Positions 291 to 59,257 of a stretch of DNA of 64,000 bases are shown here, piece after piece (positions within the stretch are counted from its first letter, which is position 1; each line of letters starts with the position of its first letter). The notes under the pieces are model-generated. The model ran no database searches. It saw nothing but the letters and a program-made list of their open reading frames with translations, and was not told the origin of the DNA. Position numbers and translations under genes: made by a program. The stretch is taken from assembly GCA_903827375.1 (NCBI GenBank), contig CAIKHZ010000229.1, positions 1-64,000 on the forward strand, read 5' to 3'. This DNA is from Akkermansiaceae bacterium. Its GTDB lineage: Bacteria > Verrucomicrobiota > Verrucomicrobiia > Verrucomicrobiales > Akkermansiaceae.

Positions 291-3200
291 TCACTTCAGT
301 GTGGGTTCAGCAAACTCGCCGCGCAGTTGCTTCTCACCTCCATCTTTTTCATACACGCCATAGAACTGGCAGGCCGAATCCAGCCAAACGGTGATACGTT
401 CCATCTCGTCGGTGGTTAGTTTGACGTCGTGATGCCCCTGCTTCAGTATCTTATAAAGTTTGGAGGCGCGAGCGCCGAATTGCCCGGGGATTGTCCGATA
501 AAACTTGGGCGAATTGAAATCTTGCCCAGCACCATACGAGACATAGCCGTAGGGTTCGGCAAGATTGACATAGGATGTGAAATATTTTCCATTCACCGCA
601 CTGTCCAAGCGTGGGGGCAGCTTCTCTCCCGGCTTGGCTTGCTTGATTTTTTCCGCGTGACAACTGACACATTTTTTATCCAGCACAGGCTGGACTAGCT
701 TTGGATAACTAAACGGGAGCGATCCATCCGGCCCGGGTTTTGGAAGTGATGGTTCGCGCCTCATCGCGAGGGGTGTCGCAACGGAGAGGCGATCAGGCGC
801 GGTGCCCTTGGGTTCATGACATCCCTGACAGGAGAGTTGCTCTCCGGGCACCAACGCAGTTGCTGAGCGCATCGATTGAATCGCGGCCCCCTGTTCATCG
901 AGTGCCTGGAAGAATATCTCATAGCCTGTAGGCACCTTGAAATAGGCACTTCCATCAGCTTCGACCGGAACCGTCCCGACAACCGTGCGGACAAGATTGT
1001 CGGAATCAAATCCTTCCTTGATCTGGATACCTGTCCAATGTGCCAACTCCGCAGTAGCCACTGACGCCGGATAGATCTGCCAGATCCGAAGAGCGGAAAT
1101 CTTGCCGGCATCTTCGGGCCACGACAAGTAGCTCTTATAGACATCCGCAATGGTTATGGTCCCTTGTCCACGCGCTTCTGCCTGCCAGTCTGCGGGTTTT
1201 CGCTGTGCCGCAGGAACAGCAGCAATACGTTGCTCCGGAATAACTGGCGGACGAGTTTCAGCACGGAGAGGTCTTGGACTCACGCAGGCAATTTGCGGGT
1301 CTCGATAGATCAGTTCCTTATTGCCAAATTTGTCGATCAAATAGATTCCAAAGGTCAGATGTTTGCCTCCAACGTTGGCCTCGGCCGGCTCATAAGAAGC
1401 GATATAATAGGTGTCGCTCAGCGGCCATGCGGTACCATAGCTCTGGGAACCTCCTTGTGTTTCAGGAAATCCGGCATCTGGGGTCAAGCGCTTTACTGGG
1501 GCCATGGCATCATCATCCGCCACGCGCGGATCGATGACCACGAGGGATCCAAAAGCTTGTCCATGATGCGGTGCACCCGTCGCGATAAAACACTGCGAAT
1601 TCGGAATCGAGCGCGTGTCGATCTCCATATCTGATCGCTTATAGCGCAGAGAATAGTTGCCGTGAATGGGACGCGGATTGCGCCCGTCCGGGGTTGTAAT
1701 CCAAGGATGATGAGCGGTACACCCATGGCGGTCAACATAATCCCAACGCGTCCAAAGCAACATGCCGTCATGAGTGATTGAAGGAGCCCATTCATTCGTT
1801 TCATGAAAGCTGAGGCAACGCATGTCCGTCCCGTCCACAGCCACATCAAACATCGTATAGTTGGGGCATTGGCGGCCGCACCGCAGATAGCCGCCACGCC
1901 GTTCGGAGATAAATGCAATGCGTCCTGCAGGGGTAAAGCACGGGGAGAAATCATTGAACGTTCCATCTGTAATCTGCTTCAGGTTCGTGCCATCGGAGCC
2001 AACCGTGAACAGATGATAACAGAAGCCCTTGTCCCAATGCCCGTTGTTCGCATGGTCCAGATGCGAAATGTGCGAGCGGCCGCCTTTGCCTTCCACATAT
2101 GCAAAGGAAATCATCTTCCCGTCATACGATAGTGCCGGCGAAAGAACGGATCCCCCATCTTTACCCATATCCTGACGTGTTCCAATTTTAAGTCCTGAAC
2201 CTGCGAGAACATCCCGAATTGCGGGTGATTCGCCAAATGGATCCGATAGGACAAGCAATCCGCCCCCAGTCCGTTGTTGTTGGCCATAGTACTGATCGCA
2301 GCAATGCTGCATGACCTGTGATAGATCGCGCTTGATGAAAAGCAATTCATTGAAATTGAGCAGCGGATTAGAGAACGCGATCTTGCGACGCAGGAGCAAT
2401 GCTTCATCAAACAATGGACGGCGTTGGGCTTCAGCGGCTGTTTTTGCCCGCGCAACAAGGTCAGCCAACGCTTTTGTTTCCGACTCAAGCGATGGGGCAT
2501 TCCGCATCGATTTAATATCGTTCAACAAGGATTGTGTGCGACGCAGCAGAATTGTCAGCGGGTCTTTATCCTCTGGTGTCACCAATGCGTCCGCGCAGAA
2601 GGTCTCTGACGCAAACTGCCTGAAACGATCTATCTTCTTCAAATCATGCTGCAAAACACCCCATTGGCGCGACGCTTCACCGTCAGGGTAGTTCCTGCCG
2701 GGCGCAGCGGGTTCTAGCCATGTTGAAAGGGGCGATACCAATGGCATTTTAGCGGGCGTCTTCCCGTAATCCGCGAGGCCCCATTTTGCGGCCAGGTATT
2801 TCTCAACTTGTATGCGTTGCTCATCTGTCGGAATGGCGTCGAACAGAATCACCTCAGCCACACGAATGTTGCCTGCTCGTGCGGCACTGCGGTCAGCCGC
2901 GAGCGTATTTGCGGCAAGTGGTTCAGAGGCGACGAGGGAGATCATGTTGAAGTTGGCATCCAGTTCATGCTCGGTTCCGTCGATCCGTGTTCCATTGAAG
3001 TAGGTAGCCCCATTCAGCAACCCATTGGCGGCGTATCGACGATCCCAAAGCTCCCCGTTGCCGCTATCAATATTCCGATGGAAGTCATAATACCCTTGCA
3101 CACCACCCATCCGGCCGAGCAGAAAGGCATTGGGGGCATCTGCCCGAATCACCCAAAAGACCGCCCGAATCTTTGTCTCGTCAGCAAAGGAAACAAATTG

Positions 3201-3527
3201 TCCGGCGCTCATCCAGACATACGGCTTGTTTCCCAGGAGCTTGTCTTTCATCAACTGGGCCTGGCCATGAACCGTCGCCTTCTTTGCGAAGGAATGTCCA
3301 TCAAACCGTGCATCACGCCATTCCGTCACTTTGTCATTTTCCATCACCATAGATGGCGCACTAGCCGCATCGAGCCAAAACGTGGCTGATTTTTCAACAA
3401 ACTCCGGGACGGCGCAAAACCCATTACGAGGGAGAAGCAACAGGATAATCCCCGCAACTAGGGCTAAACGCGCCTGATGGATGATCCATGAAGTTATCAA
3501 CAATTCAACTGTTAGTATTTGTTTCAT
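291..3527 (-). CDS. HzsA-like (hydrazine synthase alpha-subunit middle-domain related) secreted protein with N-terminal LamG-like region and two CxxCH haem motifs
   Basis: Likely start MKQILTVELL... (signal peptide) inside the 1129-aa ORF. Contains GTVPVEADGSAYFKVP, SCQGCHE, CVSCH and TolB/PD40-like repeats (SHISHLD, FSPCFTPAGRIAFISERRGG). Confidence 0.75.
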   Translation of the reverse strand: MKQILTVELLITSWIIHQARLALVAGIILLLLPRNGFCAVPEFVEKSATFWLDAASAPSMVMENDKVTEWRDARFDGHSFAKKATVHGQAQLMKDKLLGNKPYVWMSAGQFVSFADETKIRAVFWVIRADAPNAFLLGRMGGVQGYYDFHRNIDSGNGELWDRRYAANGLLNGATYFNGTRIDGTEHELDANFNMISLVASEPLAANTLAADRSAARAGNIRVAEVILFDAIPTDEQRIQVEKYLAAKWGLADYGKTPAKMPLVSPLSTWLEPAAPGRNYPDGEASRQWGVLQHDLKKIDRFRQFASETFCADALVTPEDKDPLTILLRRTQSLLNDIKSMRNAPSLESETKALADLVARAKTAAEAQRRPLFDEALLLRRKIAFSNPLLNFNELLFIKRDLSQVMQHCCDQYYGQQQRTGGGLLVLSDPFGESPAIRDVLAGSGLKIGTRQDMGKDGGSVLSPALSYDGKMISFAYVEGKGGRSHISHLDHANNGHWDKGFCYHLFTVGSDGTNLKQITDGTFNDFSPCFTPAGRIAFISERRGGYLRCGRQCPNYTMFDVAVDGTDMRCLSFHETNEWAPSITHDGMLLWTRWDYVDRHGCTAHHPWITTPDGRNPRPIHGNYSLRYKRSDMEIDTRSIPNSQCFIATGAPHHGQAFGSLVVIDPRVADDDAMAPVKRLTPDAGFPETQGGSQSYGTAWPLSDTYYIASYEPAEANVGGKHLTFGIYLIDKFGNKELIYRDPQIACVSPRPLRAETRPPVIPEQRIAAVPAAQRKPADWQAEARGQGTITIADVYKSYLSWPEDAGKISALRIWQIYPASVATAELAHWTGIQIKEGFDSDNLVRTVVGTVPVEADGSAYFKVPTGYEIFFQALDEQGAAIQSMRSATALVPGEQLSCQGCHEPKGTAPDRLSVATPLAMRREPSLPKPGPDGSLPFSYPKLVQPVLDKKCVSCHAEKIKQAKPGEKLPPRLDSAVNGKYFTSYVNLAEPYGYVSYGAGQDFNSPKFYRTIPGQFGARASKLYKILKQGHHDVKLTTDEMERITVWLDSACQFYGVYEKDGGEKQLRGEFAEPTLK

Positions 3528-3565
3528 TTGTTCGATTCTTTCGCTTGATGCAGGTTCTTTTTGTT

Positions 3566-4057
3566 TCAGAGATTGACACTCCGCTGCTGGAAACCAGGTC
3601 CGGGGGTGGTCTTGTCGGTGGATTTGTCGGGATGGTCCTGTGCCCCGCCTGTTTTCCAAACGCCGGCATACCACGCGCACACCGTCGGGAAATCAAACAC
3701 ATTCGGCCTCGCGCCCGTCGCCTCACGCAAGGCCCTGCCGTATTTCTCCAATGCCTCGAACGGATTCGCCGTGGCCGCATCCACATAGAAACTGTCCTCG
3801 GGCAAGTAGGTCTCACCGGGCTCGACCAGCTTGCCGATTGGATCGTTTCCCTTAAGCATTGCCGTCACGCTGGTTTCCACGGTTGCGCGGGCGTTGCGGA
3901 TGGCGGGAGCGGACGCAGGCGGCATGCTCAGGCTGTGCGTGCCGGTCTTGAGATCGAAATCAATGCGGGTTGCGTCATTCTGCAAGGTCTGTGCATGGGC
4001 CAGGCCGACAGTGAGAATCAGGGTGGCGATGAGGATCAAGCAGGTCGAGTGTTTCAT
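3566..4057 (-). pseudogene. 5' remnant of a secreted glycoside hydrolase-like gene (possibly alpha-galactosidase-like)
   Basis: Signal peptide MKHSTCLILIATLILTVGLAHA and mature sequence to NVFDFPTVCAWYAGVWKTGGAQDHPDKST, then abrupt stop; far too short for the apparent enzyme family. Confidence 0.45.
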
Positions 4058-21397: not shown

Positions 21398-24300
21398 TTA
21401 GTCCTCGATGACCAGGCGGATGCCGACGTCAACCACTGGCTGGAAGGTTTCAAAGGGCAGTCGGATGGCCGATCTGGCATCAACTGGCCGACTTGCCCAC
21501 GAGCCGCCGCGGGCGACCTTGCGTTCTTTCAGGTCGCCGTTGTTTCGGCCGTCATTGTCCTTATACGGATAGGGTTTGTAGTTGGAGCGGGTCCACTCGT
21601 TGACGTTGCCGATGATGTCTTTCAAGCCCCAAGGATTGGCCTCATATTGTGCGACGTAATCCACCACAAACCACTTGTCTTCGAAGCGCTCGTCATGCAG
21701 CGGGAAATTCATTTCAGGTGGATAGGGGTTGCGGTGCATGATGATCGGGCCACCCTCAAAACCCACTTTGCTCCAACGGGTTTCACGTCCCGCTAGATTG
21801 GCAAACTTCGAGTAATCATCGTTGCGGCTGCCGTAAAATAGATCTCCAGCCGTGCCGGCCCTCGCCGCCCATTCCCACTGCGCCTCGCTCGGCAGGTTCA
21901 CTTTCAAGCCCGTCGTCTTGCTCAGCCACCGGCAGAAATCCATCGACCGCTGCCACGTCACACGCGCCACCGGTTGGTCGGCATGGTTGGCAATGTATCC
22001 CGGGAAGTTGTGATCCTTGCCATGTTGGTCGATGTAACGCGTGTCATGCGCCGGATCGAATTTTGCGTACTCGGAGTTTTTGACCTCGCACTCGCTGATC
22101 CAGAACGCTTTGTCGATCTTGACTTCGGCACACGGCGCTTCGTCGGCCATCCCGCCGTCACTGCCCATGATAAACGAACCGGCGGGAATTCTAACGAAAG
22201 CAATCTCACTGCCGTCGGGCATCTTCACCAGCTTGCGGGTTTCTCCTGATTTGGTTTGGAGCTCCTTGGCTTGGAGTGGTGTCATCGGGAAGCCCGCCAC
22301 GCTGAGTGGGGCGTTAGAATGCGCCGCCACTTCCGGTGGCTTCACATATTGGGGGGGCTGGCCCGCTTTGATTTCCTGCTCACGGCGGTCATATTCGTCC
22401 TCGGGAGACACATCATTGTTAGCAAACAACTTGGCCAGCTCCAGGCGGCGCTCTTTTTGCTTGTGGCCTTCGAATTCGCCGGGGCTCCACTTTCCTTTGA
22501 ACGGAGCGTTGAGGTCGATCCATGCATACAGCCGGTCCCAGCCCTCGCGGTCGAGAGTGACTCCGTGATGGCCTTTCTTGAGCATTTGGATCAATGGGCT
22601 CGTCGAGACGTGATAGTCCATCGGTGGCAACACTTCCATTTCACTCTCAGGCCCGGGTCGGCGGACGTAGGGATGGAGCAGGTTGTAGCCGTTGCCCATG
22701 GGTGGGGGCTTGAGGCCTGGCGGGCGATCTGGCCCGTCGTGGCAGCTGATGCAATACTTTTGGAGAACGGGGAGCACCTCGTGTTCGAATCCGAACGGGC
22801 GGGTATCGCCGTACCATGGTTTGATTTTGGCCATGGGTTTGGCGTCGGCCAAGGTTCGGCTTGCCGGCACCGAGCTGCGGTTGTCCTCGTGGCAGCCAAC
22901 GCAGGAAACCCGCTCGCTGGGCATGCCGACAATCCACGAGCGCATCAACTGCAGCGCCGCCCCATCGGCATCCAGCGGTTGGATAGATATGGGTGTGTTG
23001 GCGGGAATCTCAAAACATGCCGATCCATCGGGCTCCACCGGCACCGTTCCAAGGATGCGCTTGATGTCCCAGCCCGCCTCGACACCTAGCGATTCGTGGC
23101 CACCGGTTCCGACGTAGTTGAAATGATAGGCAAACACCCGCAGTGATTTGACGGATCCGACAGGCACGCCCTTGAGGCCGGGTCCCATATAAATACTGGC
23201 AATGTGCACGGACGCCGTCTTTGCGCCGGGTGTGATGCGGTCCGGAATGACGGGTGGCCGCGGCCGGGCCTTGAGCACGACAGGCTCGAACAAGGATGCC
23301 GCAGTGTCCTCCGCCAGCAACGTGATATTGTCAAAGGTATCAACCAGATAGATGCCCCACCTGTCCGCGTCCTTTGGCTTGGCGCTCACCAGGAAGAAAT
23401 TTTCATTCAGGGGCCATGGATAGACGAACATGGGCTTCCCCTGTTCATACTGGTTGCCGGTTTGTTGGTCGCACACATCACCGACGACTGGTTTGCCCCA
23501 ACCTGGAATTTCCGCCACACATCCGGTATCCGTTGCTGGCAGCACCTCGGTGTTGATGCGCAGGAACGACCCCGCAGGCCCCCATTCCTTGCTTGTGGGA
23601 TGGTATTTGAACGGGTATTTGCGGGCAAGATAGGGGTCGAAGATAACCATCCGCCCGAACTCGGCCACGTCGTGGTGGCCGCCAATGATGGCCACCACTT
23701 TTTGTTTGCTGCCGGGGATTGCCCGTGCCTGCAAGAGTGCCGTCGGGTAATACGAGCCACTGCCATATTCGGAGAGTTGCGATGTTCCATCGGGATTCAT
23801 CGTCATCAGGATGCGCGAAAAATAGTGCATCAGGTCTGAATATTCCCAGCGGGTGTAGAGGACCCGTCCGTCATTGTTGATGGATGGTGTGTAATCCGAG
23901 TCCTGCTCAAACGTGAGTTGGCGGACCGTGCCGGATACAGGATCGCAGAGATAGGTTTGGGCCATAGGGCGGCTGCCGTTCTCGCACGGCAACGCCTGAT
24001 AGGATGCGGTCGATAACAGAATGATCCGCCCGTCCGGCAGGTAGCATCCGTCAAACCAATCCACATCCGGGTATTCCTTGGGAGATACCTGTTTGAGCTG
24101 GGTGCCGTCCGCCTTGATTTCAAAAACCGCCCATTTGCGGTTGCTATCCATGCTCGAAAATAGCAACTTGTCACCTGAAAAATCCGGCTCGACGTCCCGC
24201 ACAACCACGTCAGTGCTGGGTTTGAACAGATGGTCAAAGCGAGGTTTTCCGCGCAGGTCGGACATCACGATGATTGAATCGTCAAACCCTCCGCGGGCGA

Positions 24301-24766
24301 TGGAAACGTGGCAGTGGCTGTTGAGAGAGATGAAGCCGTTGCCGCGCGGACGACGCACCATCAGCACCTGGGCATCGTCTAGCAGCGGATTGGCGAGAAG
24401 CGCCATGCGCATGCCCTTCATCAATTGTTCCGCCTCACCCAGCTTCGCCTGATCGCCGGTATCCAGAATCGTCTTGAGCTCAGCTTGTCTCGCCTTGAAG
24501 GCAGCGAGCGCCGCACGGTGGGCCTCAGCATCATATTTGTCCGGATAGCTGACGGCCAAGTTGTCGATAGCGCGGGCCACGGCATCCACATGGATGGCGG
24601 CAAATTCCCGCCGCAGCACCCGCAGCTTATCGCCGTCGGCGATGGTCAGCCCGGTACTGTTAGGGTTGAAGCGGAATTTGGGTGGAGGGGCGTCGGCCGC
24701 GCCTGACAATCCGGAGAGTGCCAACCCAGCTGCGAGTGCGACGAGCATTTTTTGTTGGCAGGTCAT
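21398..24766 (-). CDS. HzsA-like protein (2 CxxCH) fused to a C-terminal SUMF1/FGE-fold domain
   Basis: GTVPVEPDGSACFEIP, SCVGCHED, CISCHDGP; C-terminal IPAGSFIMGSDGGMADEAP...LPSEAQWEWAARAGT...NVNEWTRSNY...RGGSWASRP. Confidence 0.85.
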   Translation of the reverse strand: MTCQQKMLVALAAGLALSGLSGAADAPPPKFRFNPNSTGLTIADGDKLRVLRREFAAIHVDAVARAIDNLAVSYPDKYDAEAHRAALAAFKARQAELKTILDTGDQAKLGEAEQLMKGMRMALLANPLLDDAQVLMVRRPRGNGFISLNSHCHVSIARGGFDDSIIVMSDLRGKPRFDHLFKPSTDVVVRDVEPDFSGDKLLFSSMDSNRKWAVFEIKADGTQLKQVSPKEYPDVDWFDGCYLPDGRIILLSTASYQALPCENGSRPMAQTYLCDPVSGTVRQLTFEQDSDYTPSINNDGRVLYTRWEYSDLMHYFSRILMTMNPDGTSQLSEYGSGSYYPTALLQARAIPGSKQKVVAIIGGHHDVAEFGRMVIFDPYLARKYPFKYHPTSKEWGPAGSFLRINTEVLPATDTGCVAEIPGWGKPVVGDVCDQQTGNQYEQGKPMFVYPWPLNENFFLVSAKPKDADRWGIYLVDTFDNITLLAEDTAASLFEPVVLKARPRPPVIPDRITPGAKTASVHIASIYMGPGLKGVPVGSVKSLRVFAYHFNYVGTGGHESLGVEAGWDIKRILGTVPVEPDGSACFEIPANTPISIQPLDADGAALQLMRSWIVGMPSERVSCVGCHEDNRSSVPASRTLADAKPMAKIKPWYGDTRPFGFEHEVLPVLQKYCISCHDGPDRPPGLKPPPMGNGYNLLHPYVRRPGPESEMEVLPPMDYHVSTSPLIQMLKKGHHGVTLDREGWDRLYAWIDLNAPFKGKWSPGEFEGHKQKERRLELAKLFANNDVSPEDEYDRREQEIKAGQPPQYVKPPEVAAHSNAPLSVAGFPMTPLQAKELQTKSGETRKLVKMPDGSEIAFVRIPAGSFIMGSDGGMADEAPCAEVKIDKAFWISECEVKNSEYAKFDPAHDTRYIDQHGKDHNFPGYIANHADQPVARVTWQRSMDFCRWLSKTTGLKVNLPSEAQWEWAARAGTAGDLFYGSRNDDYSKFANLAGRETRWSKVGFEGGPIIMHRNPYPPEMNFPLHDERFEDKWFVVDYVAQYEANPWGLKDIIGNVNEWTRSNYKPYPYKDNDGRNNGDLKERKVARGGSWASRPVDARSAIRLPFETFQPVVDVGIRLVIED

Positions 24767-24796
24767 AACGATGCGTGGGGTGGGGGACATGGCCGG

Positions 24797-49752: not shown

Positions 49753-51804
49753 TCACTCGGCCTTGTCTGTCTTGCCGGCCTTGTCTGTCTTGTCGGCCTT
49801 GTCGGCCTTGTCTGTCTTGTCGGCCTTGCCGGCCTTGTCTGTCTTGTCGGTCTTGTCGGCCGGATCTGTCTTGTCGGCCTTGTCTGTCTTGTCGGCCTTG
49901 TCTGTCTTGCCGGCCGGATCTGACGGGGCATGCGGATCCGGCTTATCGGACGGATCGGTGGGTTCGGGCAGGCGCGCCAGGCGTTCGAGGTCGAGTTTCC
50001 AGGCCATGACATTGAAGCGGGCGCGGCCCCGGGTTTTGAGGCTGGGGAGGAGGGCGTTGAGTTTTGCGATGGCATTCTCACAGGCGGCTTTGCCCTTGGG
50101 GGGGGCGTCGAACAAGGGACTGGAGAAGGCATTAAAATCGGCGATATAGTCGGCAGCGATTTTCTGATAGAACAGAACCCATGGGTCTTGCTGGCCGAGG
50201 TTGGCGGAGTTTACTGCATTAAAAAAGCGGGCGGCCTCGGCGAGATTCCCCTGCTCCCAATTTTTGAGGCCAGCCAGCAGCCAAGCCATAGCCGCAGGCA
50301 CCCCACCATCGACCAGATCGGTATCGGCGGCGGGCATGACGGGCAAGTCCGAGAGCTTTCGAAGAACTGGCAGGAGCAAGCGTTTGATCGATGGGTCATC
50401 AAGCCGAGCATTGGCAAGGTGGCTGGCGGTAGCCTTTGCCTCCTGCCGGGCGAGGCCGCTTTTGCCATCGAGATAGGGCATGATCACTGCTTCCACGCCG
50501 GCCCATGTCCGGCTGGGTTCCTGCACCTGGCCATCATCGCGCAAGCTGGCAAAGATGCCGCGTGCTTTTTCATAGTCACCGGCCTCCAGTCTGCTGCGTG
50601 CCTGTTGATAGAGATTGGTGATTCGGGCGGCGGTGGCGGCGGCATCAGTCAGCGAGGCGGCGCTGGCTGCGGAGGTGGTGATTTTACCGCCAGCTGGCAC
50701 GGATTTGTCCGGGTGCTTGAAGTGATCCCGTATTCCCCAGCCCGATAGAGCCACCAGCGCAACAGCCGCCGCCACGCCAGCCACGATTAACCCCATGCGC
50801 AACTCGCCGTGTTTCGTGGAATGGCGGCGCTTGGCAGCCACCGGCATGCCCTGCAACGTCGTGGCTCCGGCCCGCAAATTTTTGAGTGCGTCGTTCAAAT
50901 GCGCCAGCATTTCATCGTATGACTGGAAGCGCTTGGCGGGGTCGTACGCCATCGCCCGATCCACCGCTCTGCACGTTTGCAGGCTCACCCACGGTGCGGA
51001 CGTTTGCAGTGGCACGACCTTGCGTTTCGCCTCGCGCAAAATTACCGTTGACATGCTTTCCTCATCGCAGGGCGGCTTGCCTGCCAACGCATGGTACACG
51101 GTGGCTCCAAAGGCATACATGTCCGAACGAAAATCCTCAGGGTGGCTTTCAATGGTCTCCGGCGGCACATAATACGGCGTCGCCCAAATTTCCTTGGCTT
51201 GCGCGGTGCCCCCGTTGCCTAACAATAGAGCCAAACCAAAATCCACAATCTTTGCCTGACCGTCGCCATCTAGCAGAATATTGCCCGGTTTGATGTCGCG
51301 GTGGATCAAGCCCGCGCTGTGTGCCGCGCGGAGTCCCTCGGCGACTTGGATGGCGAGTTGGAGCATTTCGCGTTCGGGGATGGTGCCTCGCTCGGTGATT
51401 TGTTGCTCGAAATGGCCGCCGACGACGAATTCCATGGCGATGAAAAACCGCCCGAACGCCCGTCCTGTGGTGAACACGCGCACCACGTGGGGATGACTGA
51501 ACGAGGCGGTTAGGCGTGCCTCTTCCTCGAAGGCGGCGATGCGGCGGGCGTCGGCGGAATACGCTTCGTTGAGGATTTTGACGGCCACCTCGCGATTCAG
51601 CGTGTTATCGTGGGCGACAAAGACCACGCTCATACCGCCGATGGCGTGGCGCCGCAACAGCGTGTATGGGCCGAACTCGCGCTTCACCCGGGTATGCTTG
51701 CCGCAGCCCGGGCACGCAACATTGGCAAAGGGTCCCATCGCGGTGACGTCCATGGGACTTCCGCAAGCATGGCAATAAGCGATTTCATCCGCAGCGACCG
51801 GCAT
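49753..51804 (-). CDS. PknB-type Ser/Thr protein kinase with zinc-ribbon N-terminus, TM segment and (TDKAD)n tail
   Basis: CHACGSPMD...CPGCGKHTRV, AVKIL, GLIHRDIKPGNILLDGDGQAKIVDFGLAL, TPYYVPPE; C-terminal KTDKADKTDKADKTD repeats. Confidence 0.93.
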   Translation of the reverse strand: MPVAADEIAYCHACGSPMDVTAMGPFANVACPGCGKHTRVKREFGPYTLLRRHAIGGMSVVFVAHDNTLNREVAVKILNEAYSADARRIAAFEEEARLTASFSHPHVVRVFTTGRAFGRFFIAMEFVVGGHFEQQITERGTIPEREMLQLAIQVAEGLRAAHSAGLIHRDIKPGNILLDGDGQAKIVDFGLALLLGNGGTAQAKEIWATPYYVPPETIESHPEDFRSDMYAFGATVYHALAGKPPCDEESMSTVILREAKRKVVPLQTSAPWVSLQTCRAVDRAMAYDPAKRFQSYDEMLAHLNDALKNLRAGATTLQGMPVAAKRRHSTKHGELRMGLIVAGVAAAVALVALSGWGIRDHFKHPDKSVPAGGKITTSAASAASLTDAAATAARITNLYQQARSRLEAGDYEKARGIFASLRDDGQVQEPSRTWAGVEAVIMPYLDGKSGLARQEAKATASHLANARLDDPSIKRLLLPVLRKLSDLPVMPAADTDLVDGGVPAAMAWLLAGLKNWEQGNLAEAARFFNAVNSANLGQQDPWVLFYQKIAADYIADFNAFSSPLFDAPPKGKAACENAIAKLNALLPSLKTRGRARFNVMAWKLDLERLARLPEPTDPSDKPDPHAPSDPAGKTDKADKTDKADKTDPADKTDKTDKAGKADKTDKADKADKTDKAGKTDKAE
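49756..49920 (-). repeat. 9-nt-periodic tandem repeat encoding the kinase tail
   Basis: Repeats of cttgtcggc/cttgtctgt on the plus strand, i.e. (T/A)DK triplets on the minus strand. Confidence 0.9.
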
Positions 51805-53322: not shown

Positions 53323-55791
53323 TTACTTAGCGGGGTGGTGCCACAGGGATTCCCAGTAGCGCTGGTCCGTCTGATAGGCATTGACTGCGGCGTCGGGGGC
53401 GAGGTCCGCAGGCAATACGCCGTAGCGTTTCATCTCGCGGAGGTAGGCGGGACGGGGTTTGAAGTTAGGCATGTCAAAGCGGGTGATGGTCTCCAAGCGA
53501 TCCTTGCCGGCGGTGACCATTGCCAGCAGGGCTTGGTAGCCGGGGTCGGAGGTGTCCGCAAAGACTGCCTCAGTGTTATCAGGTTTGTGGCAGAGTTGAT
53601 AGCCGCCGGCGCTGCGGGCGAGCGGGGCTAACAATATCATGGATTTTTGCGGACGGCTGAGATTAAAGACGAGGTGGCGACTGGTGACGAGCGAGCGATC
53701 GGGAATCCTCGGCTGCCAGAACGAGGTGCCGCGTTCGTCAGAGAGATTGCGCGGCAGGCGCGGGGCTCCCTTGTCTGAGTGGCAGGCGAGGCAGCGGCTA
53801 TCCACCACCTGCGCAGCGGCACGGGTGCTGGGCCAGTCAACATCGGTGCCGACCTGGTTGTTTTCCTCGTAACCGCCGATCATGCCGGTGCCTAGTGCGG
53901 CATAAGTGCCCGGGTAGGTGGCTGCGGCGTCGATCCAAAGGCGCAACATGGTGGCTTGGTGAGGGGTGACGGTGGCACCGTAGTGGGAGCCGTCGATGAG
54001 CTTGAGCAAGCGGCTGGCGGAGGATCCGTGGGTGCGGGGGGCGTGGTTGCTGGTGGCCTGGTTGCGGCCATCGGAAAACAGGCCTGCGATGGTGAGCATG
54101 AAATAGCTATGGCTGAACATCGGGCCATGGTCGCCTGTTAGGATGAGTTTACCGGCATATGGGCCGCCGCGGGTGGTCTTGTCGTAGTCATGGCAAGCGA
54201 CGCAGGCGGAGTCGAGGATCGGTTGGATGTCACGGGGAAAGTCGAACACTTCAGGCACGCCGGGCACCGGGGTGATTTGGCTTGGCGGGTGGTCCAAGGC
54301 GGTGGGATGGAGCGGTGGAAGGGTGGTACGAGTGCGCTGCTCGTGGCAGCCGATACAGCTGGTGAGCTCACCCGGCTGGACTGTTAGAAAACTTTGCATG
54401 CGTTTTACAGCCATGTCTTTTTCATCCAAGGCGATAAAGAAGAAGCTACGACGTGCGGGAAGTTCGAGGAAGGCGGAGCCGTCGGGTTCCACTGGCACGG
54501 TGCCAGCCACGCGTTCGAGGGTGAAGGAACCGCCATAGGTAAGGGGGTCCATTCCGCCGGTGTAGTTGATGGGTTTGGGCAGTGACTCGATGACTAGCAA
54601 TTTACGGATTTCGCCGGGTTTGATGCCCTGCATATTGCGGCCTTCGAGGATATTGTAGAGGATGAGTTTGCCGGTGGCTTGGGCGGAATCGGTGTGGCGC
54701 GCAATGACCTTTCCCAATGAGCGCGGCAGGACGGGGCGTGGCTCATGCACCCAGAAGCCGGCTTGGCGCTCGGATTCCGGCAGCGTGAACAGCGGCGAGG
54801 TACCGCCTTTGCTGTCCATGGCGAGAATCTCGGCACCTCGGGCAACGATGAATGCCTCGGTGGAAAGTGGCCAGGGGTCGCGGAAATCAGCAGAGGCGGA
54901 TATCACGTGGACGGCAGCGGGGTCGTCGGGGCCGAGGCGCGGATTGAGAGTGACGACCTGGCCAGCGTGTTCCATTTGGCCGTGGCCGGGGGAGAAAATA
55001 CTAACGATTTGATCGGAGTCCGGGATGGGCTTGGCATCGATCATGACGATGCCCGGGGCCTGGTTGCCGAAGTAAATCATCTGGTTGGTGCCGTCTGGAT
55101 TGGCGCTCCAGAGGTGATGATAGTGGACTTGGGAGCGGTCGATGTACTCCCAGCGCTGATAGAGGATGCGGCCATCGGGAAGTGGCCACGGGGTATTTTC
55201 CTGTTCGAGGTTAGCGGAAATGAGCTCGATGTTGCTGCCGTCCGCGTTGCAGCGGTGGAGGGTGGCGACCTGGGTGAGCCAGCAATTGACCCAGCGTTTG
55301 CAGCGGCTGGAGACAAACACGATGCCGCCGTCTGGCAGTTGGCTTGGTTCGAAGTCATCCCACGGGCCGTCGGTGAGTTGGTGCATGTCTGAGCCGTCGA
55401 GCCGACACTCATGGAGGTGATAGTGCGGATCGGAACCCTTGCGCCATGCAAACAGGATGCGGCTGGCATCGGCGTTAAGAACCGGATCGCGGATGCCGCC
55501 GAGCGGATCGTCAATCAGGTTAGTGACTTGTCCGCTAACCACATTGAGTTTGCAGAGGCGGCCACCGGGTAGGTAGGTGGCACGGTTCTCATTGGGGCCG
55601 TAGTAGCTGAAGTTGGCATACCAATGGCCGTCGCTGGGATTGTTTTTTCGCACGGCGAAGACAATCTCCTTGAGTGCCGGGGCATGGCCCAGCACGTCAC
55701 TGCGCACGTCGGCGGAGGCCACATTCAGGCCGGCGGTCAGCGCCAGAGCGGTTGCCAGGAGGCGCGGTGGGCATGATGGGTTGATTGGCAT
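53323..55791 (-). CDS. HzsA-like secreted multihaem protein (3 CxxCH)
   Basis: PD40-like repeats, GTVPVEPDGSAFLELP, SCIGCHEQ, ACVACHDY, CLACHSDKG. Confidence 0.82.
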   Translation of the reverse strand: MPINPSCPPRLLATALALTAGLNVASADVRSDVLGHAPALKEIVFAVRKNNPSDGHWYANFSYYGPNENRATYLPGGRLCKLNVVSGQVTNLIDDPLGGIRDPVLNADASRILFAWRKGSDPHYHLHECRLDGSDMHQLTDGPWDDFEPSQLPDGGIVFVSSRCKRWVNCWLTQVATLHRCNADGSNIELISANLEQENTPWPLPDGRILYQRWEYIDRSQVHYHHLWSANPDGTNQMIYFGNQAPGIVMIDAKPIPDSDQIVSIFSPGHGQMEHAGQVVTLNPRLGPDDPAAVHVISASADFRDPWPLSTEAFIVARGAEILAMDSKGGTSPLFTLPESERQAGFWVHEPRPVLPRSLGKVIARHTDSAQATGKLILYNILEGRNMQGIKPGEIRKLLVIESLPKPINYTGGMDPLTYGGSFTLERVAGTVPVEPDGSAFLELPARRSFFFIALDEKDMAVKRMQSFLTVQPGELTSCIGCHEQRTRTTLPPLHPTALDHPPSQITPVPGVPEVFDFPRDIQPILDSACVACHDYDKTTRGGPYAGKLILTGDHGPMFSHSYFMLTIAGLFSDGRNQATSNHAPRTHGSSASRLLKLIDGSHYGATVTPHQATMLRLWIDAAATYPGTYAALGTGMIGGYEENNQVGTDVDWPSTRAAAQVVDSRCLACHSDKGAPRLPRNLSDERGTSFWQPRIPDRSLVTSRHLVFNLSRPQKSMILLAPLARSAGGYQLCHKPDNTEAVFADTSDPGYQALLAMVTAGKDRLETITRFDMPNFKPRPAYLREMKRYGVLPADLAPDAAVNAYQTDQRYWESLWHHPAK

Positions 55792-55933
55792 AGGAATGGT
55801 TGGATGTTGGCGGAGGGCATGGTCCCCTGCCACCGGTGGCCCGGGCATCCTACCCGGTGCATCTTTTCAAACAATCAAAGGTGTTGGTATAGGCGAAAAA
55901 GCAATTCTCGAAAGGCAACTGAGATGAATTGTA

Positions 55934-56001
55934 TCGACGGTCTGTGAGCGCCGATATGTGCGAAATCTCCTCTTGCGCAGCGACGGTCAAAGACTGCCGC
56001 T
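55934..56001. repeat. two tandem REP-like imperfect palindromes
   Basis: TCGACGGTC-TGT-GAGCGCCGA (55934-55954) and AGCGACGGTC-AAA-GACTGCCGCT (55979-56001); second has GTAG at its 5' end on the minus strand. Confidence 0.65.
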
Positions 56002-56056
56002 ACAGGGCTTCACATGAGCTGATCATAGATAGGCCCCTACAAGCTGATCGATATTC

Positions 56057-57862
56057 TTAGAGCGATTGCAGATAGGCGCTGAGGTCGTCGAGCTGGGCGG
56101 GAGTCAGCTTTGAGGTGACTCCGTGTTTGTCTTTGGTGTTTTGCTCGACGAGCACCTCGCGGATGGTCACCGCGCTGCCATCGTGGAGGTACGGAGGGGT
56201 GCGCCACAATTCGGTCAGGGAGGTCGTGTCGAATCTGAGAGCTCCTTGGTCGAAGGGGCGGCTGGTGCCCACATCGTACATTTGGAGGTTGGTGAGCAAG
56301 GGGCCTGGGTGGCATTTGGCGCAGGCGATTTGGGGGTCGTTGTAGAGTTTTTCACCGCGCAGAGCGGCGTCGGTCAGGGACCCGTCCGCCTTGCGGTAAG
56401 GACTCACCACCGGTTGGAGACCTTTCAGATAGGAATAGACAGCTTGCACATCCTCGTTTTTCGGCTCAGTGAAAAGAATGTGGACGAAGCCGGCCCGAAC
56501 ACAGGCTTGTAAATCGTCGCGGGCACCGTGGGACATGAGCGGCGGCGTACGGTCGCTGAAGACGAGCGAACGGGCGTTTTTCGGATTGCCCAGACCGTCG
56601 TTGAGCAAATCCCAGTTGAGACCGTCGGCCCGCCCGTCAGGATGGCATGAGGCACAGCTGAGCCAACGCTGGAAGCAGCGGCCCGCATCGTGGAAGAGCG
56701 CTTCGCCTTGGCGGGCAAGATCGGCCTGGGGCTGCACACCGAGCGCTACGGCGACCGGGGCGGCACCGTTAATGTCGGTCAGGACGACGTCGCCAGAGAA
56801 GTACGCGGCGCTGGCTACGCGCTTGCCATCGGGAGCCACGGCGAGACCACGGGGGCCTTTGCCCGGAAGGTCCACGCGGCGGATGAGGTTGTGGCGGTAG
56901 AGGGCGGCGAGGTCATTGACGAGCAATTCGGGGGTTTCCTTGAGGATTTCCGGGAGTCGTTCGAGGTCGATGAGGGCGAGTTGATGGACGCCGGAGAGGG
57001 TGATGAACAAACGCATACCGGAGGGATCCAGCGCGATACCCCAGGGGTCGGCCGCCCCATCCATCACTTGGTCCAAGAGGACGGTGGCGACAATTTTGCT
57101 GGCTGCCACGTCGATGATCGTCATGGCATTGGTATTGACCCAGCCGCGATCGAGTTGGGTGGTAGGCAGGTTAAATCGGCCGAGTGTGTGGACGACGTAA
57201 GCGGTGTGGCCGTCGCCGCTGACGGCGATGCCGCGGGTGTTGGTGGCGCCGAGAGGCAAGCGGATTGGGGGTTTGGCTTGCAATGTTTGGAGATCGATCA
57301 CCGACACTTGGGTGGCCGTGTCCGGGGCGACGGCGGCGGTGTCCGGGATGAGGTTGCTAACGAGAGCAAGGGACTCGTCCGGGGTGATGGCCACAGCGGT
57401 GGGTTGGCGGCCGACGGTGATGTTGGCCTTGGTGGTGCCGGAGGCGACGTCGATGACGGTGAGTTTGTCCAAGCCCCAATCGGTGGCCAGCAGGAATTTA
57501 TGGCGCGGGGCCATGGCGAGTCCGCGAGGGTAGCGGCCGGTGGTTAGGCGGCGGGTGACTGCGCCGCTAGCAGGATCGATTTCAGCGATGCTGCTGGCAC
57601 CGGTTTCTGAGGCGAAGAGGTGTTTTCCATCAGGTGCCCAAGCGAGGCCGGCGGGAGCGCCGCTGAGTTTGATCGTGCGCAGGACGGTGTTGTTAGCTGG
57701 GTCAATGAGGACCACCGCCGGGCTGGTGGCATCCGTGACCGCGAGAATTTTCCCATCGGGTGCGAAGGCGGTTTCAAGGGCCGAGTGCACCTCGGCACCC
57801 ATCGCTGAGTGCAGGGCGGTTGCGGCGAGGATGGCGGTCAGCCAAGCGGGGGCATGTTTCAT
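56057..57862 (-). CDS. YVTN/NHL-type beta-propeller fused to dihaem cytochrome-c-peroxidase-like domain
   Basis: ALAVTD-type repeats (FAPDGKILAVTDATSPAVVLIDPANNTVLRTIKL), CASCHPDGRADGLNWDLLNDGLGNPKNARSL, IACAKCHPGPLLTNLQMYDVGT. Start at MKHAPAWL. Confidence 0.88.
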   Translation of the reverse strand: MKHAPAWLTAILAATALHSAMGAEVHSALETAFAPDGKILAVTDATSPAVVLIDPANNTVLRTIKLSGAPAGLAWAPDGKHLFASETGASSIAEIDPASGAVTRRLTTGRYPRGLAMAPRHKFLLATDWGLDKLTVIDVASGTTKANITVGRQPTAVAITPDESLALVSNLIPDTAAVAPDTATQVSVIDLQTLQAKPPIRLPLGATNTRGIAVSGDGHTAYVVHTLGRFNLPTTQLDRGWVNTNAMTIIDVAASKIVATVLLDQVMDGAADPWGIALDPSGMRLFITLSGVHQLALIDLERLPEILKETPELLVNDLAALYRHNLIRRVDLPGKGPRGLAVAPDGKRVASAAYFSGDVVLTDINGAAPVAVALGVQPQADLARQGEALFHDAGRCFQRWLSCASCHPDGRADGLNWDLLNDGLGNPKNARSLVFSDRTPPLMSHGARDDLQACVRAGFVHILFTEPKNEDVQAVYSYLKGLQPVVSPYRKADGSLTDAALRGEKLYNDPQIACAKCHPGPLLTNLQMYDVGTSRPFDQGALRFDTTSLTELWRTPPYLHDGSAVTIREVLVEQNTKDKHGVTSKLTPAQLDDLSAYLQSL

Positions 57863-57962
57863 CGGGTGGAGGGGTGGGAGTGGAGCTGGTTCCCGCGCCG
57901 CAAGCACACGCAACGCGGAAACCGAGGGCCTATTTGCAGTTAATAGCAGGCAATGCTGCGGG

Positions 57963-58844
57963 TCATTTGGCGGGTTTGGCAGGTTTGGCCGGCTCGGCTT
58001 TGCCGGAACCCAGAGCGACGACGCGGAAGCCGTAGTTGGGCCATTTTCCGCCATCGACATCGTAGCGGGTTGTCGCAAGCAGATAGGCATCTTTGTCGTG
58101 CATGTAGAATGAACCGCCACGGAGGCCGACCTTATCACCCGTCATGGTTTCGTTGTATTCCCAAACGTTGCCGTCCTGATCAAACGTCCCCCATGGACTG
58201 GGGGCTGTCTTGAAACTGCCGACATCGGTGGGGGTGTCACTGTTCAGGTTGCAGGCCGGGGCGCTGCCACCTTTCACCGCGTATGGCCAATAGCCCGGGC
58301 CACCGGGTTTTTCGGCATCGAAATAGGCGGCTTTGTACCATTCGTTTTCAGTGGCAATGGCCCACTTCAAGGTTTTGCCGACGGCAAGGGTGGCGTGATT
58401 TGGCGGAGTCACCTGGCCCCACTTGATTGTGTAGCTGCCGCTCTCCGTGTCGGCGCCGATGCCGCCGCCGTTGCTCAACCAGTTCGCGTAACGAACGCAG
58501 GAGAGCCAAGTGAGGTAGTTGACGGGTTTTTTGCCCATGGCATCTTTCAAGCTATAGGTGAAGCTGCCGGCTTCGCCGCTGCGGAGGATCCCGCCGTATT
58601 GGGTGCCCATGCGGCCGTCGTAGAGTTCGTAGGAATCGCTTTTGGCGACGGCGTTGAGAAAGGCGCAATACTCTTCGTTGGTCACCTCGAATTTGCCGAT
58701 TTTGTATTCGTAGGGCACTGCGCCATAGCCCGTGGAGTCGGCCGCATTGCCCGGCTTGCCCACCGGAACTGTCACTGGTGGGGCCGCTTGGACTGCGACA
58801 GAGGCGGCTAACAGCAGCCAAATGGATTTGGAATGGGTCATCAT
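57963..58844 (-). CDS. secreted SUMF1/FGE-fold protein
   Basis: YKIGKFEVTNEEYCAFLNAVA, PVNYLTWLSCVRYANWLSNG, ATENEWYKAAYF, DQDGNVWEYNETM, GLRGGSFYMHD, YGFRVVAL. Confidence 0.88.
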   Translation of the reverse strand: MMTHSKSIWLLLAASVAVQAAPPVTVPVGKPGNAADSTGYGAVPYEYKIGKFEVTNEEYCAFLNAVAKSDSYELYDGRMGTQYGGILRSGEAGSFTYSLKDAMGKKPVNYLTWLSCVRYANWLSNGGGIGADTESGSYTIKWGQVTPPNHATLAVGKTLKWAIATENEWYKAAYFDAEKPGGPGYWPYAVKGGSAPACNLNSDTPTDVGSFKTAPSPWGTFDQDGNVWEYNETMTGDKVGLRGGSFYMHDKDAYLLATTRYDVDGGKWPNYGFRVVALGSGKAEPAKPAKPAK

Positions 58845-59257
58845 ATGGTAATTAGTTTGGTATTTGCCGAAACAGTTTGCCTTCATTCTCTGACAACTGG
58901 ATCGCGGCTGCCCACCTTACGTGCCACGGTCCGGGGGTCTTTCGGAAAATTTTGTCTAGGTGTGCGGGATTGGTGAGACGTGTGGCAAGTGCGGCCATGG
59001 GTGCCAAACCAAGGCGAGGCGGATTGCAAAATCCACAGGCTTGTGAGGGGTTGCGGCAAAGTGGGAATCGTTGTGAGGGATCGGGCATTATGGCGGACGC
59101 AGTGTCCCTAAGTATCTAGCCAAAGAACTCGGCGTTAGACCTCAAAAGAGCCAATGAGTCGAGCAAGTTCAATTCCCTGAAATTGCCGTCAAACTCAGGA
59201 GCCGCACAAGCCTATTTGTCGCGCTTGTGGCTTTGGAGAGGAGGGGGCAGAACTCAG

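Follow-up and report, generated by a model that had tools for sequence, protein, structure and literature searches.

A hydrazine synthase-like alpha/beta-gamma gene pair beside a loosely linked SUMF1 gene in an Akkermansiaceae genome

Do three consecutive genes for secreted haem and SUMF1-like proteins in an Akkermansiaceae bacterium encode one redox complex, and to what is it related? The genes lie in the window, the whole stretch of 64,000 nucleotides analysed here (contig CAIKHZ010000229.1 of assembly GCA_903827375.1, positions 1 to 64,000), which comes from a metagenome-assembled genome (MAG) that is 96% complete. The original prediction, made from the sequence alone, had described a minus-strand run of a SUMF1-like gene, a gene for a beta-propeller-dihaem protein (BG) and a gene for an HzsA-like protein (alpha), and had proposed that their products form a functional complex. 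Hydrazine synthase (HZS) was long held to have no relatives. It was found that BG and alpha are an HZS-like pair outside anammox bacteria, in which alpha is tri-haem, and that the SUMF1 gene beside them is loosely linked. The features of the locus are as follows.

57963..58844, minus strand: free SUMF1/FGE-like secreted protein (Pfam FGE-sulfatase, 58 bits; reading frame open to 58886)
56057..57862, minus strand: BG, HZS beta-gamma-like fusion of a propeller and a dihaem CCP/MauG-type domain (hydrazine_BC, 187 bits)
56642..56656, minus strand: CASCH haem motif of BG, gamma-I equivalent (all 106 of 106 BG sequences keep its Cys and His)
56309..56323, minus strand: CAKCH haem motif of BG, gamma-II equivalent (His invariant in 106 of 106 BG sequences)
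53323..55791, minus strand: HzsA-like tri-haem alpha, with a TolB-type propeller, an HZS_alpha middle domain and cytochrome domains (PF18582, 71 bits)
54343..54357, minus strand: CIGCH haem motif of alpha, alpha-I equivalent, no Tyr591 (motif and alignment)
54190..54204, minus strand: CVACH haem motif of alpha, alpha-II equivalent (motif and alignment)
53779..53793, minus strand: CLACH, third haem motif of alpha (outside the stretch that matches HZS alpha; clade marker)

All three genes are present where the prediction had placed them. Its counts of two CxxCH motifs in BG and three in alpha also hold, and they were reached by none of 5000 residue shuffles. A hydrophobic, signal peptide-like N-terminus, read by eye, is seen on each of the three proteins, which agrees with the secretion that had been claimed. 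The signal peptide of the SUMF1-like protein begins at the ATG at 58844, then MMTHSKSIWLLLAASVAVQAA; the open reading frame (ORF) itself opens at 58886.

Homology of the pair to hydrazine synthase

Along its entire length, BG is homologous to HZS beta plus gamma. It matches the NCBIfam model hydrazine_BC in three stretches (4e-55), with a score far under the curated cut-off of 1250 bits, and it matches the separate beta and gamma models with 4e-35 and 3e-33. Pfam assigns a propeller and a CCP_MauG/cytochrome c domain. In a PDB search, the C-terminal half was closest to HZS gamma (2e-30, 109 bits), the next being the dihaem enzyme 6e1c with 33 bits. The propeller matched HZS beta from end to end (1.6e-29), with an equal score for a generic surface-layer propeller. 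Invariant positions in the BG propeller are densest at LPTTQLDRGW (residues 232-241). By an inferred exact numbering, this run aligns to a part of HZS beta at, or close to, the loop that approaches the tunnel between the two active sites (PMC12607021). Its conservation may be read as a retained contact between alpha and BG with different chemistry.

The alpha protein is homologous to HZS alpha along nearly all of its length. It scores 71 bits against Pfam PF18582 (HZS_alpha) and 54 bits against the NCBIfam alpha model, whose cut-off is 800. Its top PDB match, both by profile and by fold, is HZS alpha (5c2v). A profile of 22 relatives matched 5c2v_A in four stretches over the propeller, the middle domain and the C-terminal cytochrome domain (6e-46). 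The AlphaFold 2 (AF2) model (predicted local distance difference test, pLDDT, 80.5) found 5c2v as the best PDB entry in Foldseek (E 2e-30, template modelling (TM) scores 0.57/0.60, 17% identity), followed by TolB (3e-13). The third haem motif marks a supported tri-haem clade (24 proteins, support 1.0). Since BG is homologous to HZS beta and gamma and alpha to HZS alpha, the core of the locus is an HZS-like alpha/beta-gamma pair.

The architecture and homology of the pair are thus those of HZS alpha and a fused beta-gamma. Compared with HzsABC (Kuenenia 5c2v; Scalindua with fused HzsBC), the alpha propeller, the HZS_alpha middle domain and two equivalent haem motifs are shared, as are the beta-gamma propeller and dihaem domain, fused as in Scalindua (PMC10732223), and the adjacency of the genes. 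In contrast, the window alpha has 17% identity over the fold, a third haem motif and no Tyr591, and the window BG has neither His144 nor Asp168.

Catalytic residues and likely chemistry

Does the pair still make hydrazine? In HZS, Tyr591 ligates the alpha-I haem and the His of the CxxCH motif of this haem binds zinc. At gamma-I, a third thioether bond is made to Cys165, Asp168 is nearby, and His144 stands in place of the MauG Trp (PMC12607021, PMC12758564). In the alignment, the Tyr591 equivalent is missing in alpha, which has a canonical CxxCHE at alpha-I (CIGCHEQRT); the position is Thr or a gap, and Tyr is not among the common residues in 135 homologues. The His144 equivalent is missing in BG, where the column is Ser with an adjacent His (region PPLMSHGARDD), and the Asp168 position is gapped. 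The Cys165 column is Cys in the window BG and a few sister species, yet in only 9 of 106 homologues, and a conserved third-thioether Cys165 was therefore rejected. Judging from the aligned residues, the pair lacks the key HZS catalytic residues Tyr591, Asp168 and His144. Their loss, together with scores far under the curated cut-offs, argues that this is not a hydrazine synthase. PMC12758564 likewise concludes that key HZS residues are lost in non-anammox homologues.

It is thus highly improbable that the window encodes a true HZS, or another nitrogen-cycle enzyme, and comes from an anammox-like bacterium that has gone unrecognised. In favour of this are the homology with each of the three HZS subunits, the Scalindua-like fusion and the Cys that the small clade of the window has in the column of gamma Cys165. 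Against it stand, besides the missing residues and the canonical alpha-I motif, the verdict of non-HZS on the published homologues (PMC12758564) and the host itself. Unlike an HZS host, the window host is an Akkermansiaceae bacterium whose genome encodes a terminal oxidase. An HAO/HDH-type cytochrome was not found there: PF13447 (HAO-type multihaem cytochrome) had zero matches in the 96% complete genome, and zero in the control genomes too. The genome sample held no true anammox genomes.

Could BG belong to a different kind of dihaem enzyme? Like MauG, CCP and MbnH, it carries two CxxCH haems in a CCP_MauG-type domain, and SUMF1 is the formylglycine-generating-enzyme (FGE) family. A MauG/MbnH/FGE-like maturation system, with a partner protein that is modified by the dihaem protein BG and the SUMF1 protein, would fit this superfamily membership. 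However, the dihaem domain of BG is fused to an HZS-beta-like propeller, and BG is much closer to HZS gamma and lacks the distal MauG/CCP Trp, which is present at that column in 11 of 106 BG sequences and absent from the other 95. The SUMF1 protein has no Cys pair, and a small target protein is not evident in the locus. I consider such a system unlikely.

The own genome has 33 HZS_alpha matches, and a paralogue expansion of this size, among secreted and propeller-rich proteins, might suggest cell-surface cytochromes that have a structural or electron-storing role and no dedicated catalysis. This is quite unlikely, because near-invariant residues outside the haem motifs suggest an active site. 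The RWEY motif (213-216) keeps its Trp in 131 and its Tyr in 133 of 135 HzsA-like proteins; His270 is kept in 122 of the 135 and the His at 603 in 127. In the alignment, His603 of alpha falls no more than one residue from His772 of HZS, which is the distal ligand of alpha-II.

The reading that I prefer, with a rough probability of 55%, is a secreted two-gene HZS-like complex of BG and the tri-haem alpha, which would be a periplasmic multi-haem redox enzyme and not HZS. In line with this, the genome encodes proteins for c-type cytochrome assembly. On the model of HZS, BG would exchange electrons with a periplasmic carrier through its dihaem domain, and its gamma-I haem would carry out redox chemistry on a small molecule. 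Alpha would dock on the BG propeller, and its alpha-I haem would act on the same or a derived substrate, again as in HZS. The alpha-II haem and the extra third haem of alpha may serve as an electron relay. Both the formation of the BG-alpha complex and this electron path are inferred.

Conservation of the pair and its link to SUMF1

Is the pair conserved? Same-genus genomes are labelled G here (the own genome is G000) and loci L. Alpha orthologues (at least 71% identity) exist in nine same-genus genomes, and in nine of nine a BG orthologue (at least 69%) is directly adjacent and co-linear. The redox pair of the original prediction is therefore real. A BG-anchored sample of 80 BG loci was also assembled from named genomes of many phyla and the window. 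An HzsA-like gene lies at most two genes from BG in 52 of the 80, across phyla. HzsA-like genes make up 72 of 279 genes at distance 1-2 from BG versus 13 of 359 farther away (Fisher 9e-17), and in L146 and L122 BG and an HzsA-like protein are fused in a single ORF.

Several observations weigh against the two-gene complex. The BG-alpha gap is 265 bp in the window versus about 12 bp in several relatives (e.g. L042 and L044). The partners of BG belong to several different HzsA subfamilies in the tree, and the pairing of BG with HzsA-like proteins may be loose. When the phylum sample was anchored on alpha, none of 20 loci with tri-haem alpha paralogues (45-58% identity) adjoined BG, a negative that rests on direct reading of the flanks, as the phylum search scored the best few candidates per genome. 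The tri-haem protein can thus work without BG. The substrate, too, is a guess, probably something organic or derived from carbohydrate and not NO with ammonium. In summary, the orthologues form a stable pair, but the tri-haem protein is also encoded by itself. The notion that a tri-haem alpha always stands beside BG came from the BG-anchored loci and was rejected as ascertainment bias in view of the alpha-anchored sample.

Tandem HzsA-like genes, one tri-haem and one di-haem, occur with no BG on contig C30 of the own genome and at L067:7470-12649. Pieces of the BG-alpha gap of the window (55795-56055) match 16 other places in the own genome. The gap between the SUMF1 gene and BG is about 100 bp. 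Neither gap holds a minus-strand terminator-like site, and the number of sites in the scan was not above shuffles.

What, then, is the SUMF1-like gene? Its product has RGGSFYMHDKDA where FGE has the catalytic Cys pair. The pair is missing, as expected from the prediction of a non-catalytic protein. A profile of its wider family matches FGE (3e-42); NCBIfam gives no match for the free protein and puts the fused SUMF1 domain under all cut-offs. The AF2 model of the free protein is weak and of little use (pLDDT 62, TM about 0.4), and a fold search with this low-confidence model listed Tvp1, FGE, CarF, EgtB and PorK. The protein thus resembles the SUMF1/FGE family (FGE, EgtB, PvdO, GldK/PorK, Tvp1) by Pfam FGE-sulfatase and by these low-confidence fold matches, but it has neither the FGE Cys pair nor the N-terminal domain of EgtB and OvoA.

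The complex had been argued from an HzsA-SUMF1 fusion elsewhere in the window, by Rosetta-stone logic. The fusion was confirmed. The two other HzsA-like genes of the window are as follows.

21398..24790, minus strand: HzsA-like-SUMF1 fusion paralogue, two CxxCH, SUMF1 domain at about 21401-22216 (PF18582, 110 bits; PF03781, 133 bits)
291..3680, minus strand: third HzsA-like protein of the window, two CxxCH, no SUMF1 (PF18582, 82 bits)

According to the original prediction, SUMF1-like protein, BG and alpha are three subunits, the free SUMF1 standing in for the fused domain. The gene order SUMF1-BG-alpha is kept in G000, G028 and G047, and a second, unrelated SUMF1 lineage lies upstream of BG-alpha in L052. 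However, the free SUMF1 orthologue (at least 77%) is present in five genomes, and in two of these, G054 and G006, it is located elsewhere; it is not beside BG in six of the nine pair-bearing genomes. Across the genus, free homologues with 40-50% identity are frequent, and genomes without the pair have them too. The free protein has 22-28% identity to the fused SUMF1 domains, including that of the 21398 gene, and forms a separate branch in the tree. Thus, SUMF1 is neither linked to the pair wherever it is present in the five genomes nor, by tree and identity, in one subfamily with the fused domain. Free SUMF1 and an HzsA-SUMF1 fusion occur in one operon in L044/L094, so that neither replaces the other in L044. 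Together with the tree and the identity, this led to the rejection of the idea that the free gene is the fused SUMF1 in split form.

Because the SUMF1 lineages are separate and the orthologues are unlinked in two of five genomes, the locus-to-locus inference fails for this SUMF1 gene and the 21398 gene. The idea survives at the family level, where co-occurrence was found repeatedly. Six of the 16 SUMF1 domains of the own genome are fused to HzsA-like proteins (hypergeometric estimate about 4e-10, with 5000 genes assumed and copies that share descent). The fusions fall into a single clade (support 0.94) and an independent case in L154; fusion thus arose at least twice. HzsA-SUMF1 fusions lie at most two genes from BG in 17 of the 80 BG loci, across phyla. 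In L122 (2083-11418, a Verrucomicrobia MAG), a 3111-residue ORF holds a repeat-rich N-terminus, HzsA-like, SUMF1 and BG parts and four CxxCH. SUMF1 domains therefore have a family-level partnership with HzsA-like proteins. Fusions are about a quarter of the BG-adjacent HzsA genes versus 6 of 33 genome-wide, not clearly commoner beside BG; thus, SUMF1 tracks HzsA and not BG. The 21398 fusion sits in the large HzsA-SUMF1 clade, and the own-genome sister of the fusions in the BG operons of close relatives is L076 on contig C128, not the 21398 gene.

The three-subunit complex is thus doubtful, for all that L122 unites the three parts in one protein. The free SUMF1 gene is a peripheral, lineage-specific, loose and recent neighbour of the pair, and I propose that its product is a non-catalytic FGE-fold accessory or a bystander.

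Neighbouring genes, published homologues and meaning

Which other genes accompany BG? A RidA-like protein of about 400 residues, with weak similarity to FkbO/Hyg5 chorismatases, is encoded near BG in 20 of the 80 loci, usually directly downstream (among them L150, L143, L164, L153 and L158), and an aldo/keto reductase in five of the 80. The window locus has neither gene. No report that ties a RidA-like or FkbO/Hyg5-like protein to HZS-like genes was found in the literature searched.

Genes for rhamnosidase, fucosidase, GH2, GH43 and arabinofuranosidase form a glycan cluster about the 21398 fusion. The minus-strand glycan-degradation run around this fusion (4062-28679) also holds GDSL esterases, a sugar kinase and an MFS transporter, and adjoins the HzsA-like gene at 291-3680. 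Among the top 25 families listed, several glycoside hydrolase (GH) families had at least two matches in 93 neighbours of HzsA-like genes in the own genome, versus none in 91 genes of other contigs, an enrichment that is suggestive only. Together with the RidA-like and aldo/keto reductase neighbours, the glycan cluster hints at organic, not nitrogen, substrates. Elsewhere in the window, 49753-51804 encodes a Ser/Thr kinase-like protein with a long, low-complexity C-terminal tail of DKTDKADKT type.

Co-located homologues of HZS alpha and beta-gamma have been reported outside anammox bacteria, as clades I-IV (Hagglund et al. 2025, PMC12758564), and hzsABC-like genes in Phycisphaerae (PMC10732223). 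As far as the available parts of both papers go, these pairs share with the window the co-location, the fused beta-gamma and the lost HZS residues, whereas SUMF1, RidA-like or aldo/keto reductase neighbours, a tri-haem alpha and Akkermansiaceae are not seen there. The window BG has neither the Trp reported for clades I-III nor extra N-terminal haems, and beta-gamma precedes alpha; the missing Trp and haems argue against placement in clades I-III. In the open-access literature searched, no report of an HZS_alpha-SUMF1 link, a tri-haem alpha clade or an Akkermansiaceae pair was found.

A candidate for a close non-anammox relative of HZS is L132 (8893-15239, a Planctomycetota MAG). Of 100 scored against HZS beta-gamma, its BG came first (298 bits), and this BG groups with HZS beta-gamma (support 0.96); the HzsA-like partner at the locus also branches deeply.

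More broadly, and only tentatively, HzsA-like, HzsBC-like and SUMF1 domains may make up a widespread non-anammox enzyme class with an undescribed periplasmic redox chemistry, the stock of HZS. It would span Verrucomicrobiota, Planctomycetota, Hydrogenedentota and Kiritimatiellae, its partner would often be a RidA/FkbO-like protein or an aldo/keto reductase, and its SUMF1 would be functional and recruited more than once. With 33 matches in one Akkermansiaceae genome, HZS_alpha matches are useless as anammox markers in this group. An HZS-like pair in an ordinary sugar-degrading lineage of freshwater heterotrophs offers tractable homologues for the role that the fold had before anammox.

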